A stretch of DNA of 25,666 bases from a virus: IMG/VR virus record IMGVR_UViG_3300012960_000003, positions 1-25,666 of that record; one strand, 5' to 3'. Of this stretch, positions 1,327 to 21,000 are shown one piece after another; positions within the stretch are counted from its first letter, which is position 1; each line of letters opens with the position of its first letter. Made by a program: the position numbers and the translations under genes. Below the pieces are notes generated by a model, which saw only the letters and a list, made by a program, of their open reading frames with translations, was not told the origin of the DNA and ran no database searches.

Positions 1327-1621
1327 TAAGTTCCTAGAACTTTTCGAGAGTAAGGTACACTCGAACCAAGAGGACTCGTTTGCAGTCAGACAATTGTTGG
1401 ATAAGACGATCGGATTGTTGGGTACAAAAGACCCACTAGCTTACCAACAAGTGCAGGCTATGCAAACCGTAACTAGCACTGTCGAGCCCGACTATGATCC
1501 CTCCGATAACGGAGAGTTTTTGCGTGAAGTTATGAGAGGCCAATATGACGTCAGCGGTGAACAAGCTCTTGGGCAAGACGAAATTGAACAAGCCCTCCGC
1601 GACGCAGGACTCGAAGTCTGA
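1211..1621 (+). CDS. Small membrane protein with coiled-coil tail
   Basis: A 136-aa protein starting at GTG, supported by GGAGG at about 1200-1204. Residues 3-28 (AWLLMWMGLWLLLAILPSLV and following) form one strongly hydrophobic segment, followed by a basic and acidic helix (RGQLRAERERADKFLELFES) and a polar, acidic C-terminus. It overlaps the preceding gene by 116 bases and the portal start by 77 bases, both long for this compact late operon. Its build, one N-terminal membrane helix then a charged helix, resembles the gene at 6301. Location between terminase and portal does not reveal a role; a holin-like or membrane accessory function is possible but not shown. Confidence 0.7.
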   Translation: MSAWLLMWMGLWLLLAILPSLVIWLLVRGQLRAERERADKFLELFESKVHSNQEDSFAVRQLLDKTIGLLGTKDPLAYQQVQAMQTVTSTVEPDYDPSDNGEFLREVMRGQYDVSGEQALGQDEIEQALRDAGLEV

Positions 1622-3107
1622 CCCTACTAGTCCAACCGACAAGCAATCAAAAGGCACTGTTTCCGACGATGGACTTGTGCAATGGGTTAAGTCGGAGTAT
1701 GACAAGTGTCGAAATCAGAGGGCTCAGTACCAAAAGACTTGGGAGCTTCATCTTCTCCATTACGGTGGGGAGCAGTGGGTAAATCTCATTACGGGTGGCC
1801 GCATTGTTACCCCAAATCTCCCAAGCTACAACCAAAAACTGGTGACGAATCTGCTGCGACCCCTGGTTCGACAGCAGATTTCGCGGATGACGAGCGAAAA
1901 GCCGACAGCTAGTGTTATTCCCGTGTCGGCTAGTGACGATGACTTGCTTGCAGCGCAAGGCGGACAGGCAGTTTGGGATTCACTGTACGATACTCAGAAG
2001 ATTCAGCAGAAATTGATTCGCTGTGCATTCTGGACAGTGATGACCGGCAATGGATTCTTTAAGACTTTTTGGGACAGTAATAAGGTTGATTACAACTTTC
2101 TAGCCGTAAATCCAATTATCACCCAGCCGCAGCCACAGCCTGGTGATTTATGCTTTGCAACCGTAACTCCGTTCAATTTGTTTGTGCCTGACCTTTTGGA
2201 AGAAGAGATTGAGTCACAAACTTATGTTATGGAAGTCTACACCAAGCCTGTGCTGTGGGTTAATACCTTTTGGAAGGACTATCTACAGCATCCTGTCGAA
2301 CCTGATTGCATCGGCAGCCAGGAGATTTTTGAATCTTCTTATTGGAGGATCAAGAACGATAATTCGGCTAAGCCGGATGCTGTCCGTGTTATTGAAATGT
2401 ACCTGAAGCCAGGAGCCCATAGAGATTTCCCACAGGGTGCACTTCTTACAATTGTCGGAGACCAACTTGTCCAGAAGCTTGGGCGACTTCCTTATTCTCA
2501 TGGTGAATATCCTCATGCGCACTGGGGAGATATTCTGACTGGAAAGTTTTACCGGGACTCGCCTCTTGTCGATGCAATTCCTCTTCAGAGGCACTATAAC
2601 CGTACGCGCAACCAGATGATTATTTCTATGTTGCGCACCGGCAAGACGCAACTTGCCTACACTGAAGGATCAATTGATCCTAACCGTGTAACTTCTCGGC
2701 CTGGTGAATTGATTCCTGTTAAGCCTGGATTTCAGCCACCGACACCTATTTTGGCTCAGCCAATTCCGGCGTTTGTCAGTGATGAACTTAATGTCGTTCG
2801 CCGAGACTTGGAGGATATTTCGGCACAACACAGCGTGTCGAAAGGGCAATCTCCGGGATCGGGTGTCGTAGCGGCGACAGCAATTAACTTCCTGCTGGAA
2901 CAAGATAACACTGTCTTTTGGGCAACAATTGCTAGCGGTGAAGCTCTCGTTCAAAAGGTAGCAAAGCAGGCCCTGTCGATTGTTGCCGACATGTGGGACC
3001 TGCCTAGAATTATTCGTACCATCGGTATGGATGCAGCCTTCGATGCTGTTGAATTGAAGGGTGCGCAGATTTCTCGGGGGCTGGCTATCCGCATTGAGCA
3101 CGGATAA
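1545..3107 (+). CDS. Portal protein, N-terminal 520 residues (frame interrupted by TAA)
   Basis: Portal subunits form the dodecameric ring through which DNA is packaged and ejected and to which the tail attaches. The sequence has the P22-type portal layout: a Lys/Arg-rich N-terminal helix region, a motif of the type FYRDSPLVDAIPLQRHYNRTRNQMI in the middle (about residues 335-360), and the long crown/wing helices after it. The start at ATG 1545 has GAGAGG upstream. The frame stops at TAA 3105-3107 directly after AIRIEHG, but the next codon is ATG and the same frame continues for 216 codons with what reads as the rest of a portal (MIPESKTAKQ and so on). Together the two parts give 737 codons, close to the 725 residues of P22 gp1. 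See the TAA entry for the alternatives. Confidence 0.9.
   Translation: MTSAVNKLLGKTKLNKPSATQDSKSDPTSPTDKQSKGTVSDDGLVQWVKSEYDKCRNQRAQYQKTWELHLLHYGGEQWVNLITGGRIVTPNLPSYNQKLVTNLLRPLVRQQISRMTSEKPTASVIPVSASDDDLLAAQGGQAVWDSLYDTQKIQQKLIRCAFWTVMTGNGFFKTFWDSNKVDYNFLAVNPIITQPQPQPGDLCFATVTPFNLFVPDLLEEEIESQTYVMEVYTKPVLWVNTFWKDYLQHPVEPDCIGSQEIFESSYWRIKNDNSAKPDAVRVIEMYLKPGAHRDFPQGALLTIVGDQLVQKLGRLPYSHGEYPHAHWGDILTGKFYRDSPLVDAIPLQRHYNRTRNQMIISMLRTGKTQLAYTEGSIDPNRVTSRPGELIPVKPGFQPPTPILAQPIPAFVSDELNVVRRDLEDISAQHSVSKGQSPGSGVVAATAINFLLEQDNTVFWATIASGEALVQKVAKQALSIVADMWDLPRIIRTIGMDAAFDAVELKGAQISRGLAIRIEHG
3105..3107 (+). other. In-frame TAA inside the portal frame
   Basis: The TAA is followed at once by ATG in the same frame, and sequence on both sides reads as one portal chain. 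In portals of this kind I would expect a small residue such as Ser here (HG-S-MIPESK); TCA to TAA is one C-to-A change. No Shine-Dalgarno sequence lies close to the ATG at 3108, so separate translation of the downstream part would need termination-reinitiation. TAAATG junctions also occur at 8209-8214 and 10679-10684 between genes that look truly separate, so a natural split is possible. Confidence 0.75.
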
Positions 3108-3758
3108 ATGATTCCTGAGAGCAAGACCGCTAAGCAAGCTCTCTTGATGGATATGGCCAAGATGGGCTTTATCACTCCTGAGAACTTGCTTGATCTGTTG
3201 CCGATGGGCGGCGTCAAGCGTATTACTGAAATCATCAAGGTTGATTACGCTCAAGCACAGCGTGAAAATCTCAAGATGAAGAAGCTCGATCCAAATGAGC
3301 TTCTCATGGGCGATCAGGAATATCAGCAGAAACTTTTGCCGGATGCCAACGGTTATGTCGATCCGTCGACATTTGATCCTGGTACTGGGATGTCGTTGCA
3401 GAAGCCACTTGTGGTTCCTGTTAATGATTACGACAACCACAAAGTTCACATCGAGGTCCATAACAGATTCCGTAAGACTCAAGAATTTGAGACTCTCGGT
3501 GATCGAGTTAAGAAGGAATTTGCAGATCACATTCTTCATCATCAGGTTCAAATGATGATGGGCGCACAACGTGATATGATGGCACAGAGTGGAGGGCCCA
3601 TTCCAGGAATGGCCGGGCCTGACGTAGCAAATCCGGCTACTGAACAACAATTTGCTGGGCAGCAGCAAGACCAAGCGGCACAAATGATGCCACCGGAAGG
3701 GGGTGGACCACAAAATGGCGACCAACGAAACGGGCAACAGCCTCTCGGTGGTGGATAA
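3108..3758 (+). CDS. Portal protein, C-terminal part, or separate gene reinitiated at TAAATG
   Basis: This 216-residue frame follows the TAA of the portal without any gap and in the same frame. The opening stretch, MIPESKTAKQALLMDMAKMGFITPENLLDLL, matches the late part of podophage-type portals, where a Pro-x-Ser-Lys motif is followed by helices leading to the barrel. The middle carries acidic and amide-rich helices. The last 70 residues are rich in Gln, Met, Gly and Pro (GPNGDQRNGQQP-like), typical of a disordered portal tail. The end overlaps the following gene by 44 bases. I read it as the C-terminal third of the portal; as a stand-alone protein it has no family that I recognise. Confidence 0.8.
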   Translation: MIPESKTAKQALLMDMAKMGFITPENLLDLLPMGGVKRITEIIKVDYAQAQRENLKMKKLDPNELLMGDQEYQQKLLPDANGYVDPSTFDPGTGMSLQKPLVVPVNDYDNHKVHIEVHNRFRKTQEFETLGDRVKKEFADHILHHQVQMMMGAQRDMMAQSGGPIPGMAGPDVANPATEQQFAGQQQDQAAQMMPPEGGGPQNGDQRNGQQPLGGG

Positions 3759-4959: not shown

Positions 4960-4975
4960 TCAAAAGGAGACACCA

Positions 4976-6211
4976 GTGCCCGCAACACTTTCCACCATTT
5001 CCGCTCTTGCGAAGGAAATGTACGAGGACCCGCTGCGTATGCAGCTTAATGACGACACCCTGATTCTTCGCCGGATTGTTAAGCCGACTGGTGGAGAAGC
5101 TGACGTTGTGACGGACATGGTCGGTGCAAAGTAACGTACTTTTCGCGTTCACTATCTTCGCGACTCAGGTCTCGGTGCTCGGCGTGAAAATGAAAACTTG
5201 CCGACGGCAGGTCAGCAGGGTTCTGCGGCGGCTCGTATTCCGCTGAAGTACCTTTACGCAAAGCTTGGTCTTACTGGCCAGGTTTTGAAGCTGGCCAATT
5301 CTAAGCCACAGGTTTTCGTTTCTGCGCTTAAGCATGAAATGGAGCGGCTCCGTGTTGACTGCGCTGTCGATCTGAACCGTCAGATTTATGGCACGGGTTC
5401 TGGTGCTCTTGCAGTTACTTCTTCGACCACGTCGTTGAACACTGCTGTCATTACTTCTGGTATTGATAACCTTCAGATCAACGAGGTTATTGATATCTAC
5501 ACCGCTGCGAACTTGGCGGCGGACTCTACGGCGAAGGCCACGGCCCGAAATGTTACTGCCATCGTGAACAACGATGACGGTACTGGTTCGGTGACTTTCG
5601 ACGGTGCGGCTGTGTCGTTTACCAACCTGGACGTTTTTGTCCGAACTGGTAACGCAAACCGTGAGTGGGCTGGCCTCGGAATTAAGGTCAACAACACTGG
5701 CGGTGTCGCTTACGAGAATATTGACCCGAACAACGTTCCCGTGTGGAAGTCCTATGTGAATGCCAACGGTGGTACTCCTCGTGCGATTTCTGAGACGATG
5801 ATTTCCAAGCAGGTCGACCTTACTTATCGCCAGTGCGGTAAGAACGTGTCGGTCATGGTTACTTCGCTCGGTGTCCGTCGTTCTTATGCGAACCTGCTCA
5901 CTCAGCAGCGGCGTTATGTGAACCAGAAGGAATTTACCGGTGGTTTCGCTGGTATTGCATTTACCACGGACCGTGGTGATATTCCGCTGATTGCGGATAA
6001 GGATTGCCCCTTCAACACTCTCTACGGTCTGCGCGAGGATGCAATCAAGCTTTACCGCGAATCCGACTGGTCCTTCATGGATGAAGATGGTTCGATGTGG
6101 CTTCGGGACCCGAGTAAGGATGCTTACTCCGCAACTTTGTTCCAGTACTCGGAACTTGCCACTGATCGTCGCAATGCTCACTTTGTGATTAAGGACATCA
6201 CGGAGAGCTAA
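4976..6211 (+). CDS. Major capsid protein, frame interrupted by in-frame TAA at codon 53
   Basis: This is the coat protein forming the icosahedral shell (HK97-fold type by order and pattern). The start is GTG 4976 with AAGGAGA five bases upstream. The first 52 codons (PATLSTISALAKEMYEDPLR and on) end at TAA 5132-5134, after which the same frame continues without a break to TAA 6209-6211. The sequence straight after the stop (RTFRVHYLRDSGLGARRENE, then PTAGQQGSAAARIPLKYLYA) belongs to the same N-arm and E-loop region, so the full chain would be 411 residues. No credible start with a ribosome site exists just downstream of the TAA: the next in-frame candidates are a TTG at 5198 and an ATG at about 5338. 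Without readthrough, suppression or a sequencing error the phage would make no intact coat. A 338-codon frame on the other strand is only a shadow. Confidence 0.9.
5132..5134 (+). other. In-frame TAA at codon 53 of the major capsid gene
   Basis: The context is GGT GCA AAG TAA CGT ACT TTT, with capsid-like sequence on both sides in one frame. Related coat proteins usually have an aromatic residue in this place (G-K-Y-x-T-F type); TAC to TAA is one C-to-A change. The base after the stop is C, a context that is often less efficient for termination. TAA is also used as an ordinary stop elsewhere in the window (6209-6211, 8209-8211, 10425-10427), so it is not reassigned throughout. Confidence 0.85.
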
Positions 6212-16300: not shown

Positions 16301-17236
16301 GTAGTCTCCGGGTCTGATGTGGCATTCAAATACAAGGGCCAGGACATTACTTACCAGGGTCTGTATAAGATGGCCCATAATGAAGGCATCTTGCAAAACT
16401 GGCACTCCACAGAAGATATCATGGAGAATACCAGCAAGATTGCCGACAAGATGATGGCCAATCGCTACATGCAGACCATGGGCAAAGTTAATGAGGCGGA
16501 AGGTCAGTTCTCAAGACTTGCCCACTTCCAGCACCTTCTGGAAAAAGGCAAGAGTGTTTCAGCGGCTGGACTTATTGTTCGTCGACACCACCCTGACGTC
16601 AGGGGACTGACGCCATTTGAGCAGAAGTACATGCGTAGAATTTTCCCGTTCTACAACTGGTTCCGACAGGCAATGCCAGTAGTGTTCAGCACTATGTTGT
16701 CGAAGCCGGGCCGAGTTACGGGATTGTTCAAGGCCGAGTACAATGTTGCTCAGATGATGGGAGTAAATCCCGATACTCTTGTCGATCCGTTCCCGAATAA
16801 TAAACTGTACCCTCAGTTTATTCTCGATAACTTGACCGGACCGATTGCAGGAAATTACTCTGTTGCGCTGGGTATGCCACAGGAAGCTTTGCTTAACGAC
16901 ACTCTAAATGGGAGTCCTGCACGAAACATTGCGGGAATGCTGAATCCTGTCTTTAAGGTGCCTTACGAAGTTACGTCCCGGACAAGGGTCGACACTGGCG
17001 CTAATATCAGCGACATGTCGGATTATGTCGATAGCAACATTCCTATTGTAAATCAAGTTGCTAATATCTCTGGAACCAGTATCACCGGACTTGGTGCTGA
17101 CCAACGCGCTGTCGAAATTGGGGAGAAAAACAGGGTCTTTAATACTCAGTTGGTAAACTTCTTGACAGGTCTCGGCCTGCTGGATACAAGCAAGCCCTCC
17201 TACAAGAATATTGCAACTAAGGAGCGCGCACAGTGA
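13316..17236 (+). CDS. Giant internal virion/ejection protein with FtsK-gamma-like winged helix
   Basis: A 1306-aa protein, the largest in the window. Residues 1-150 include the conserved-looking VDPGVGTRILDILSRPLYSV stretch and an Ala-rich amphipathic section (about 150-205) that may interact with membranes. Residues about 316-372 resemble the FtsK gamma DNA-binding winged helix: VSPRQLSQDLGIDYKTAQRH then MEKDGIVGTA. Residues 380-720 are helical. The C-terminal part carries the signature FEQKYMRRIFPFYNWFRQAMP (about 1099-1120), found in large phage internal proteins, preceded by hydrophobic helices (KPFMTIARPGHVVRNLWSDI). It ends by overlapping the GTG of the next gene. I infer entry into the host with the DNA; an enzymatic role is not seen. 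Confidence 0.8.
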   Translation: MANTNNSVTALANQYIKSLQQVGAGRPQTKSTQMALNLSGYHPKNWGGFDDVIQQNVDPGVGTRILDILSRPLYSVAGIAKATAQNINSLQGDAGAEVRNPFGAAWEGFTGREKTTFSDAIRESLRGDNLDKTFLFGGTPENHIGGSAEDVLAGAGGLALDIALDPSNLVAGGATAAIRAGAKAARGATDVAKAAETAKAAATPVKEVTAVAPVRQYWKEITDPAEIAKYKIPTEVAPAAPAHVIPDEIVKEAITAEPPVLDHIKRSTEQPTTLDSLAMGQHINVLTTKAANNIFQAEKSMPKAPGFIKEINPEEYMRSAQYAVDSMHVSPRQLSQDLGIDYKTAQRHMALMEKDGIVGTAQEAARGRGLEAGRNLSHLSRDVKVNEIPADLMINRTPPTDVTRAEAMYNEVVPAARQKFDELASQGVKPKITSTDGKSYTMSTADIFEALPRNIVEDYNFGAASKKGAGNLYPSQWHAGAAEALRMSELGVEPTLAAPAIAKAMREALRGNASRAKSIEAAGSVDIVARSMAMNQAALAAKLVETSKKFGTKDLVDGETLAKTKADDVQNSMAKGSLSEAIDSVANVGNDISKSAKEIGASNDAAVSAVHQVGPMVAKVVPEADLAAARNAKFAENVRVREGFTPQADKKIMLRQGKLYLLVERNADQIAKEAGIPFLTLGEKTDITLNSFLDKLMHPLKNAFQFGYHTGGQAHEWRALESRADREGLMFRASLSKIAKTHGDSVDPAWTAFRRGQIPEDPAVLAAYNDLKGVIDHTIGNGLRGRLWRNGASIDAINQALEEAGSKFRFKKPAKPEDRALVPEQVRDWDIKDPLPELEKINKAALLIETRQTVGVSASRFGSNVPKPGYVKLRAGELSKLGNYVDTGLFYPRDAGEYIQQLDRLIGSQTSFRGQKGGIAWFANHIIDPIMQIWKPFMTIARPGHVVRNLWSDIMIAAFNGVMSVRPYRIAAKTMQAAGEFTKTGVKGLEKLRDEVVSGSDVAFKYKGQDITYQGLYKMAHNEGILQNWHSTEDIMENTSKIADKMMANRYMQTMGKVNEAEGQFSRLAHFQHLLEKGKSVSAAGLIVRRHHPDVRGLTPFEQKYMRRIFPFYNWFRQAMPVVFSTMLSKPGRVTGLFKAEYNVAQMMGVNPDTLVDPFPNNKLYPQFILDNLTGPIAGNYSVALGMPQEALLNDTLNGSPARNIAGMLNPVFKVPYEVTSRTRVDTGANISDMSDYVDSNIPIVNQVANISGTSITGLGADQRAVEIGEKNRVFNTQLVNFLTGLGLLDTSKPSYKNIATKERAQ

Positions 17237-19079: not shown

Positions 19080-20051
19080 TCAGCTAGGAGGCTTCGGAAG
19101 AAGCTGATTAACTGATGCTTGCAAAGCATCAACCTTAAGCGTAAGATCAGTCAGAGTTTGCATGATCTTACCAAGTCCATTGACCGGGCTGAAAATCTGC
19201 TGGTTACTGGCATTGATGGATGAAATGATATTGTCGGTGTTCTTCTGGTCATCCGGGATGCCGTCCTGGTTTCCAAAAGCGAACCGGTAGGCCAGAAGCG
19301 CGTTGACAGAATCGTTGCAGACCTGTCGAATTTCTGGGATCAGTGCACCAATGACAGCGTCCTTGGAGACGTTAATCCAGTTCGGAACAAACTGATAAAT
19401 TCCACGGTTAGTTCCTGCAAGGCTTCCGATGACAGATTCGGTTCCCGGCATCCCACCCATCGGGACCTTACTGGGATCGTTGAAATACGAATCCGGGTCT
19501 GTGTAGGTCATTGGGTACCAACCTTTCCAGAAGTTATCTTCTGTCGGAGTACTGCCGGAGTCAAGCACGATTTGAGCATATTGGATGTTGCGTTTGTAGT
19601 TGTCGCCTGCCGAGAACTCTGAACCTTGAACTTTCTGACAGGCTTCGTGGATCGGCATATTCTGCCAATCGTATTTATTCAGTCCTGCCGCACTACTACC
19701 GTTAGGGAACTTGAATCCGACCAAGAACCCTGTGGCAGCCTTGTAAGGGTCCATGACATCAGGTCCCCAAAACTGCGGCTGTTGCTGAAAAAGTCCACCA
19801 CTTCGCTGAGTAGACCAAGATTTACTAGGGGGATCGCCGTCATTAGGATGGTAGTTGTAAAAGGAGGGTTCCCTAGGGTTAGTGTAATTGAGCCAGCCAA
19901 AAGGTCTACCGTCACAAGTTTCAGTGATAATTGTAGTGTAGACAATGAGTCTGACTTTGTCATTCCACATCCTACAATCTCTGATTGCTTTGTCTACCTG
20001 TTGTTTGTAGAAGTCATAGTGAGGTGATTTTACTAGGCTGCCGGAAACCAT
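19080..20051 (-). CDS. Endolysin, lysozyme/transglycosylase-like glycosidase
   Basis: A 323-aa protein from ATG 20051 (GGTGGA upstream); an in-frame TTG at 20063 and GTG at 20060 would add a few residues. The start overlaps the end of the amidase gene by 19 bases. The first 175 residues are a lysozyme-like domain of actinophage lysin A type: VYTTIITETCDGRPFGW (catalytic Glu candidate near 44), then GGLFQQQPQFWG and DPYKAATGFL. The middle is Asp/Pro/Gly-rich, and the last 35 residues form a short coiled coil (LGKIMQTLTDLTLKVDALQA) ending in KPPS. It would cut the glycan strands at the end of infection. No signal peptide is visible, so export needs a holin. Confidence 0.8.
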   Translation of the reverse strand: MVSGSLVKSPHYDFYKQQVDKAIRDCRMWNDKVRLIVYTTIITETCDGRPFGWLNYTNPREPSFYNYHPNDGDPPSKSWSTQRSGGLFQQQPQFWGPDVMDPYKAATGFLVGFKFPNGSSAAGLNKYDWQNMPIHEACQKVQGSEFSAGDNYKRNIQYAQIVLDSGSTPTEDNFWKGWYPMTYTDPDSYFNDPSKVPMGGMPGTESVIGSLAGTNRGIYQFVPNWINVSKDAVIGALIPEIRQVCNDSVNALLAYRFAFGNQDGIPDDQKNTDNIISSINASNQQIFSPVNGLGKIMQTLTDLTLKVDALQASVNQLLPKPPS

Positions 20052-20647
20052 TGGTTCCACCAATTTGCAGGTTTGCCGCTGTCGATGAGACCTTGAATAA
20101 TTGCTACCTGTTCATTCCATTCCCTCTGCCAGACAGCAGGATCGTAAGATGAACCAGTTTCTCCAAAATCAGGATCAGGCTTTCTTCCGACAGGGCGAGC
20201 GATCATCTTGTGGAATCGCATTCGCGAAGCCGGCCAGCCTTCATGTCGAAAGATAGAGGCATAGCCTCGTTGCACGCTGTCGATCAAAGCAGGTGAAGGT
20301 TGTTCCCCTGTCGTCTGATCTGTTTCTGTGCCAGCCGAATTATAGCTTGTGACGATATTATCGGTGACACCGGCGTGCCATGCAAGACCGCTTCCGACAA
20401 AATGCCAAGTTCCATCATAGCCGATAATGATTTGTGCTGACGGCTGCTCAGCATTGTATGCGTTAATCAGCCAATCAACATCACCCGGAGTAGGTCCGGG
20501 CGGAGAACCATCATGGTGCCAGACAAGATAGTCCAGGCTATGAAGCGGACCCATTGGTTGATTGTTTCGCCAGTTGTTGTGTTCTGCTACTTTGTATGGA
20601 AAGATTGGACTAGCTCGAAGAACGTCGGCCCAGTCACGGATTCCCAT
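20033..20647 (-). CDS. Endolysin, N-acetylmuramoyl-L-alanine amidase (Amidase_2/PGRP)
   Basis: A 204-aa, single-domain amidase that would release the stem peptide from muramic acid. The zinc-binding pattern of the PGRP/Amidase_2 family is visible: LVWHHDGS (His44 or 45), WHAG (His91 region), and FHKMIARPVGRKPDPD (His146, Lys156, Asp158). The start at ATG 20647 has GAGGAG at 20656-20661. In many actinophages this domain and the glycosidase are fused in one lysin A; here they are two overlapping genes, both complete, in different frames. There is no membrane segment or cell-wall-binding repeat. It is the first gene of the leftward lysis transcript. Confidence 0.9.
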   Translation of the reverse strand: MGIRDWADVLRASPIFPYKVAEHNNWRNNQPMGPLHSLDYLVWHHDGSPPGPTPGDVDWLINAYNAEQPSAQIIIGYDGTWHFVGSGLAWHAGVTDNIVTSYNSAGTETDQTTGEQPSPALIDSVQRGYASIFRHEGWPASRMRFHKMIARPVGRKPDPDFGETGSSYDPAVWQREWNEQVAIIQGLIDSGKPANWWNQWFPAA

Positions 20648-20691
20648 GTGTTATACTCCTCACACTCTCGGTGTCTCCTTCGCATGATACC
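20648..20691. promoter_or_regulatory. Divergent intergenic region between amidase and WhiB-like genes
   Basis: A 44-53 base region separates the leftward lysis genes from the rightward whiB-like gene and must hold, or lie next to, divergent start signals. It contains the amidase ribosome site (complement of CTCCTC, 20656-20661) and a rightward TATACT (20652-20657) that could be a -10 element; no matching -35 element was found at usual spacing. ACAC-TCTCG-GTGT is a short inverted repeat within it. Confidence 0.4.
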
Positions 20692-20702
20692 ATGTGTGGT
20701 AT
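20687..20702. promoter_or_regulatory. Inverted repeat over the WhiB start, possible operator
   Basis: ATACCA-TGTG-TGGTAT is a perfect six-base inverted repeat with a four-base centre. It includes the ATG at 20701. A dimeric repressor or the WhiB-like product itself could bind here, or the hairpin could affect initiation. No second copy was noticed in the window. Confidence 0.35.
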
Positions 20703-21000
20703 GACAAACGCCTATACGCCGTGGGAACGCGAGTGGTCCGGCGCTAAGTGTGTCGGAATGGATACAGACGCATTCTTCCTCCCTGACGAGAAGATATCGC
20801 GTATGGAAAAGGCCAAGAGAATTCAGGCGGCAAAGAAGATTTGCTCAGGCTGTTGTCTTATAAACAAATGCTTAAACTATGCCATAACCCATAATGTAGT
20901 TGGGGTATGGGGCGGTAAATCAGAAGAAGAGAGAGCAGGACTGCAACGTGTAGCTAGGCAATTCCTATCCTCTAAAAATCGCAGTAAGCTGTTCTTGTAG
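20701..21000 (+). CDS. whiB: WhiB-like Fe-S transcription regulator
   Basis: A 99-aa Wbl protein (from ATG 20701; ATG 20692 or GTG 20671 are possible in-frame starts, none with a clear ribosome site). Cys17, Cys48, Cys51 and Cys57 have the canonical C-x30-C-x2-C-x5-C spacing that binds a [4Fe-4S] cluster; there is an extra Cys at 52. GVWGGKSEEERAG gives the conserved G-[VI]-W-G-G turn and the following helix. The C-terminus is basic (RQFLSSKNRSKLFL) but lacks a long AT-hook. Wbl proteins act with the principal sigma factor; phage copies can act as dominant regulators of host genes. It is the only rightward gene in the right-hand half, convergent with the gene at 20965, with 36 bases of overlap. 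Confidence 0.93.
   Translation: MTNAYTPWEREWSGAKCVGMDTDAFFLPDEKISRMEKAKRIQAAKKICSGCCLINKCLNYAITHNVVGVWGGKSEEERAGLQRVARQFLSSKNRSKLFL

Follow-up and report, generated by a model that had tools for sequence, protein, structure and literature searches.

An internal stop codon in the major capsid gene

We analysed the IMG/VR virus record IMGVR_UViG_3300012960_000003, a linear fragment of 25,666 bp which was taken in its entirety and is referred to below as the window, and within it the gene for the major capsid protein, whose reading frame is broken by a TAA triplet at codon 53. The gene and the elements that define its interruption lie as follows.

4964 to 4970, plus strand: Shine-Dalgarno sequence AAGGAGA, with a five-base gap to GTG 4976 (read directly)
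4976 to 6211, plus strand: major capsid protein gene (SU10_MCP / phrog_14242), 411 codons and a terminal TAA, broken at codon 53
5132 to 5134, plus strand: in-frame TAA at codon 53; TAC in the twin contig described below, and TAT, TAC or TGG in 89 relatives
19-mer around codon 53, in two versions: GCAAAGTAACGTACTTTTC versus GCAAAGTACGTTACTTTTC

Downstream of the codon-53 TAA the frame continues for 358 sense codons (5135-6208) up to the terminal TAA at 6209-6211. In a profile search this part matched phrog_14242, 'major head protein', with an E-value of 1.8e-86 over its positions 4-357, and the Pfam family SU10_MCP (PF17236) was matched with 33.2 bits against a cut-off of 24.1. Such a continuation has no chance of being accidental, and the locus is a real capsid gene containing an internal stop. 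An earlier note, made from the letters of the window alone, had described the frame with its coordinates, the Shine-Dalgarno sequence, the TAA at codon 53, the 358 downstream codons and the capsid identity, all of which we found as described. Its further statement that no usable start follows the stop was correct in part, since a nominal in-frame TTG is present at 5198 (codon 75), with no ribosome-binding sequence seen upstream of it when the sequence was read directly.

Codon 53 in relatives and in a near-identical contig

The capsid frame was compared with those of 89 relatives, comprising viral contigs and annotated phages. TAT occupied codon 53 in 49 of them, TAC in 38 and TGG in two, so that the homologous residue, for which the earlier note had proposed this comparison, is tyrosine in 87 cases, tryptophan in two and never a stop; no in-frame stop was present anywhere within the aligned capsid frames (0 of 89), and the interruption is thus confined to the window. 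One of the two search patterns used to collect the relatives spans residue 53 and therefore favours relatives with Y or W at that position; five loci and the annotated phages that were retrieved with the post-stop part alone agree on this residue. The residues immediately beyond the stop are almost invariant in the family, residue 54 being V in 88 relatives and C in one, residue 57 P in 87 and A in two, and residue 63 N in all 89. Conservation on both sides of the stop, as it had been claimed, accordingly holds for the downstream part as a whole, which is capsid protein, and fails for the codons just past the stop (54, 57 and 63), which in the window are unconserved. The closest annotated capsid proteins belong to the actinobacterial phages Cellulosimicrobium phage DS1, Microbacterium phage Shocker and Arthrobacter phage Jasmine, which are 39-47% identical over the full length and fall into the same family (SU10_MCP / phrog_14242). 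These phages share with the window the order portal, putative scaffold, capsid; unlike the window, they carry a capsid gene without an in-frame stop and with residues 54 and 63 intact.

A second contig, IMGVR_UViG_3300012989_000004, proved to be a near-identical record of the same phage and is called the twin here. Aligned end to end, the two overlap by 21,680 bp without a gap and differ by 26 mismatches (99.88% identity). Gene order is shared between the two records, whereas the capsid gene of the twin is intact, its 411 codons all open and codon 53 reading TAC, and its portal gene is an intact frame of 737 codons. An independent record of this genome thus lacks the stop. Sense codons at 5132-5134 in the reads had been named beforehand as a result that would overturn the claim of an interrupted gene, and a second record of the phage with a sense codon there comes close to it. 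No paper naming metagenome 3300012989 was found in the literature.

Comparison with the twin placed the stop within a short series of changes, accompanied by a single change further downstream in the same gene.

5134 to 5162, plus strand: patch of five changes (5134, 5135, 5136, 5145 and 5162), all of them amino-acid-changing and at near-invariant residues
5128 to 5142, plus strand: perfect inverted repeat AAAGTA-(3 nt)-TACTTT, with the spacer ACG in the window and CGT in the twin
5685, plus strand: isolated T>A relative to the twin, M237K in the capsid protein, where relatives have I, M or L

Within these 29 bp the window differs from the twin by C>A at 5134, G>C at 5135, T>G at 5136, C>G at 5145 and A>G at 5162, with the effects Y53*, V54R, P57R and N63D. 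The change from CGT to ACG at the stop is an exact inversion of the spacer of the inverted repeat; it can equally be described as an insertion of A paired with a deletion of T four bases apart, or as a three-base change. Jointly, the changes at 5145 and 5162 form a perfect 5-bp inverted repeat, TCGCG/CGCGA, which is absent from the twin.

Clustered changes in the portal gene and elsewhere

A similar patch was found in the portal gene.

1545 to 3758, plus strand: portal gene (P22_portal / phrog_156), 737 codons in the twin and 520 + 216 codons in the window, where it is divided by TAA 3105-3107
3080 to 3106, plus strand: second patch, with four changes (3080, 3085, 3100 and 3106) that include the portal stop S521*

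In this patch the residues of the window deviate from a conserved D-I-R-[IM/V] stretch. Because the site of the stop reads TAAATG, gene callers would report a pair of genes here (520 and 216 aa) in place of the single gene of relatives: in DS1, Shocker and Jasmine the portal-sized coding sequence is single and uninterrupted, with 716-722 residues. At 1899 in the same gene (portal codon 119, E119K) the twin has E, and the window together with two of the three aligned relatives has K; since the twin is the odd one at this position, not every difference between the two records is the fault of the window. A third patch lies at 16561-16571, where three changes in 11 bp of the gene for a 1306-aa protein leave S1082 silent and produce E1083A and I1086L; residue 1083 is E in the twin and in the sole aligned relative.

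Five of the 26 mismatches thus fall within 29 bp in the capsid gene and four more within 27 bp in the portal gene. When 26 mismatches were placed at random in 20,000 trials, about 0.01% of the trials gave four or more within 30 bp, and none gave five or more. We then divided the mismatches into 13 window-only changes, that is, the patches 3080-3106, 5134-5162 and 16561-16571 together with 5685, and the 13 remaining differences from the twin. The window-only changes comprised 11 transversions and two transitions, and 11 of the 13 alter the amino acid, whereas the remaining differences comprised two transversions and 11 transitions and were mostly synonymous; the contrast between the two sets (p=0.001 and 0.005) is indicative only, because the mismatches were grouped post hoc. 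Judged from their composition, the remaining differences look like ordinary strain variation under selection, and the window-only changes look like substitutions that have not been filtered by it.

Origin of the internal stops

Since the twin has a tyrosine codon and the stop lies within a tight patch of damaging changes, a sequence or assembly error is the most likely explanation, and we put the probability that the codon-53 TAA is a local error in the metagenomic contig, and not phage biology, at roughly 0.8. The portal and the capsid gene, both essential, are each broken by a separate patch. In the simplest account, the consensus at thinly covered stretches would have been taken from single or poor reads, for instance from the low-quality end of one or two of them, so that wrong bases would have passed unfiltered; the patches at 3080-3106, 5134-5162 and 16561-16571, and also 5685, would then be short runs of errors, two of which happened to yield stops. 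It is in the reads, and not in replication, that we infer the changes to have originated. Among the three options that the earlier note had left side by side, namely readthrough or suppression, a sequencing or assembly error and a defective genome, the error is the one best supported by the TAC of the twin, the relatives and the damaged patch. Several points weigh against it in addition to the post hoc grouping. The evidence consists of assembled contigs; the two stop patches alone, compared with the rest, gave a transversion contrast of p=0.10; the dense stretch of differences at 944-1011 resembles ordinary strain variation, so that density alone is no mark of error; and the three-base change at the stop, being an exact inversion of a hairpin spacer, is the outcome expected of a real template switch. 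That change could stem from the real genome, from library preparation or from a coincidence of base calling. Read dephasing, in which a neighbouring base is copied, fits 5134-5136, 3080 and 5685 and was rejected for failing at most other changes. Recombination with another phage was likewise rejected as the source of the patches, as an exact search for the capsid or portal patch version of the window matched no other viral contig.

The template switch leads to the alternative of a real defective variant, in which a mutational burst, possibly by template switching at short inverted repeats, broke both the capsid and the portal gene. Such a variant could persist only dead or dependent on a helper, unless it were a rare form that the assembly happened to pick up. 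Spacer inversion and the homogenisation of repeat arms are known marks of template switching (PMC8604942), and the window has a possible instance of each, in the exact conversion of AAAGTA-CGT-TACTTT into AAAGTA-ACG-TACTTT, which is like the quasipalindrome spacer inversions of yeast (PMC8604942), and in the TCGCG/CGCGA arms, which match here and not in the twin. In contrast to the yeast mutations, the arms in the window are only 6 bp long, several patches do not fit and a read error is possible. The fit is exact at 5134-5136, and the changes at 5145/5162 make up a new 5-bp repeat; the changes at 16561-16571 and 5685 lie at no inverted repeat, on which ground template switching was rejected as the sole cause of all patches, and no inverted repeat at the portal patch explains its four changes. 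This reading also requires damage to two separate essential genes with almost no change in the remainder of the 21.7 kb, and we consider it unlikely. A very slim chance attaches to the strongest versions of phage biology, in which a helper-dependent variant truly lost capsid and portal through bursts of template switching, or in which TAA is read through in two structural genes.

Programmed readthrough, a suppressor tRNA or reassignment of TAA would yield a full capsid protein through codon 53, as the 358 further open codons of conserved capsid protein might suggest. The stop is not conserved at this codon in any of the 89 relatives, and TAA terminates nine of the 29 main frames of the window, including those of portal and capsid, with TAG and TGA also in use. 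The suppressor tRNA for which the earlier note had proposed a search was not found: neither the window nor the twin contig, both of them incomplete records, yielded a tRNA gene; with TAA a normal terminator, an alternative code or a suppressor tRNA was rejected. Because residues 54, 57 and 63 are damaged too, readthrough would neither explain nor mend the flanks of the stop, and together with the TAC of the twin these results make it scarcely credible. Just as implausible is a capsid made in two parts, the first an N-terminal peptide of 52 residues and the second a protein of 337 residues with its restart at TTG 5198: an in-frame TTG does follow the stop, but it has no ribosome-binding sequence, no relative is split, and a restart there would lose residues 53-74, including the family-invariant V54, F56, R62, N63, G65, R69 and E71. 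An intact capsid gene elsewhere in the genome, which would have disposed of the original claim, was not found either, a single place in the record matching the capsid family, and a second capsid gene was rejected accordingly.

Gene content of the window and implications

The genes of the window encode a terminase, the portal, a putative scaffold, the capsid, an SU10-type adaptor protein and structural proteins, as well as a lytic transglycosylase/NlpC-P60 protein, an amidase, a WhiB-like regulator and a family A DNA polymerase. The WhiB-like transcription factor (PF02467, E=4e-15; 20671-21000) fits an actinobacterial host. On the minus strand, at 19080-20647, a 204-aa amidase frame is followed by a 327-aa frame in an overlapping register, which has no Pfam match and a TTG as its sole start; window and twin agree here, and the two frames could be two lysis genes or a single gene with a frame change.

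If the codon-53 TAA is a sequence error, as we favour, the phage most likely bears an ordinary SU10-type gene for its major capsid protein, without interruption; the biological consequence would be small, the coat gene of this phage being normal. The finding is a caution that phage records resting on a single metagenomic contig may hold short patches of error which mimic recoding or the splitting of genes, the divided portal gene of this window being a further and probably false case, and that a near-identical contig can reveal such errors.
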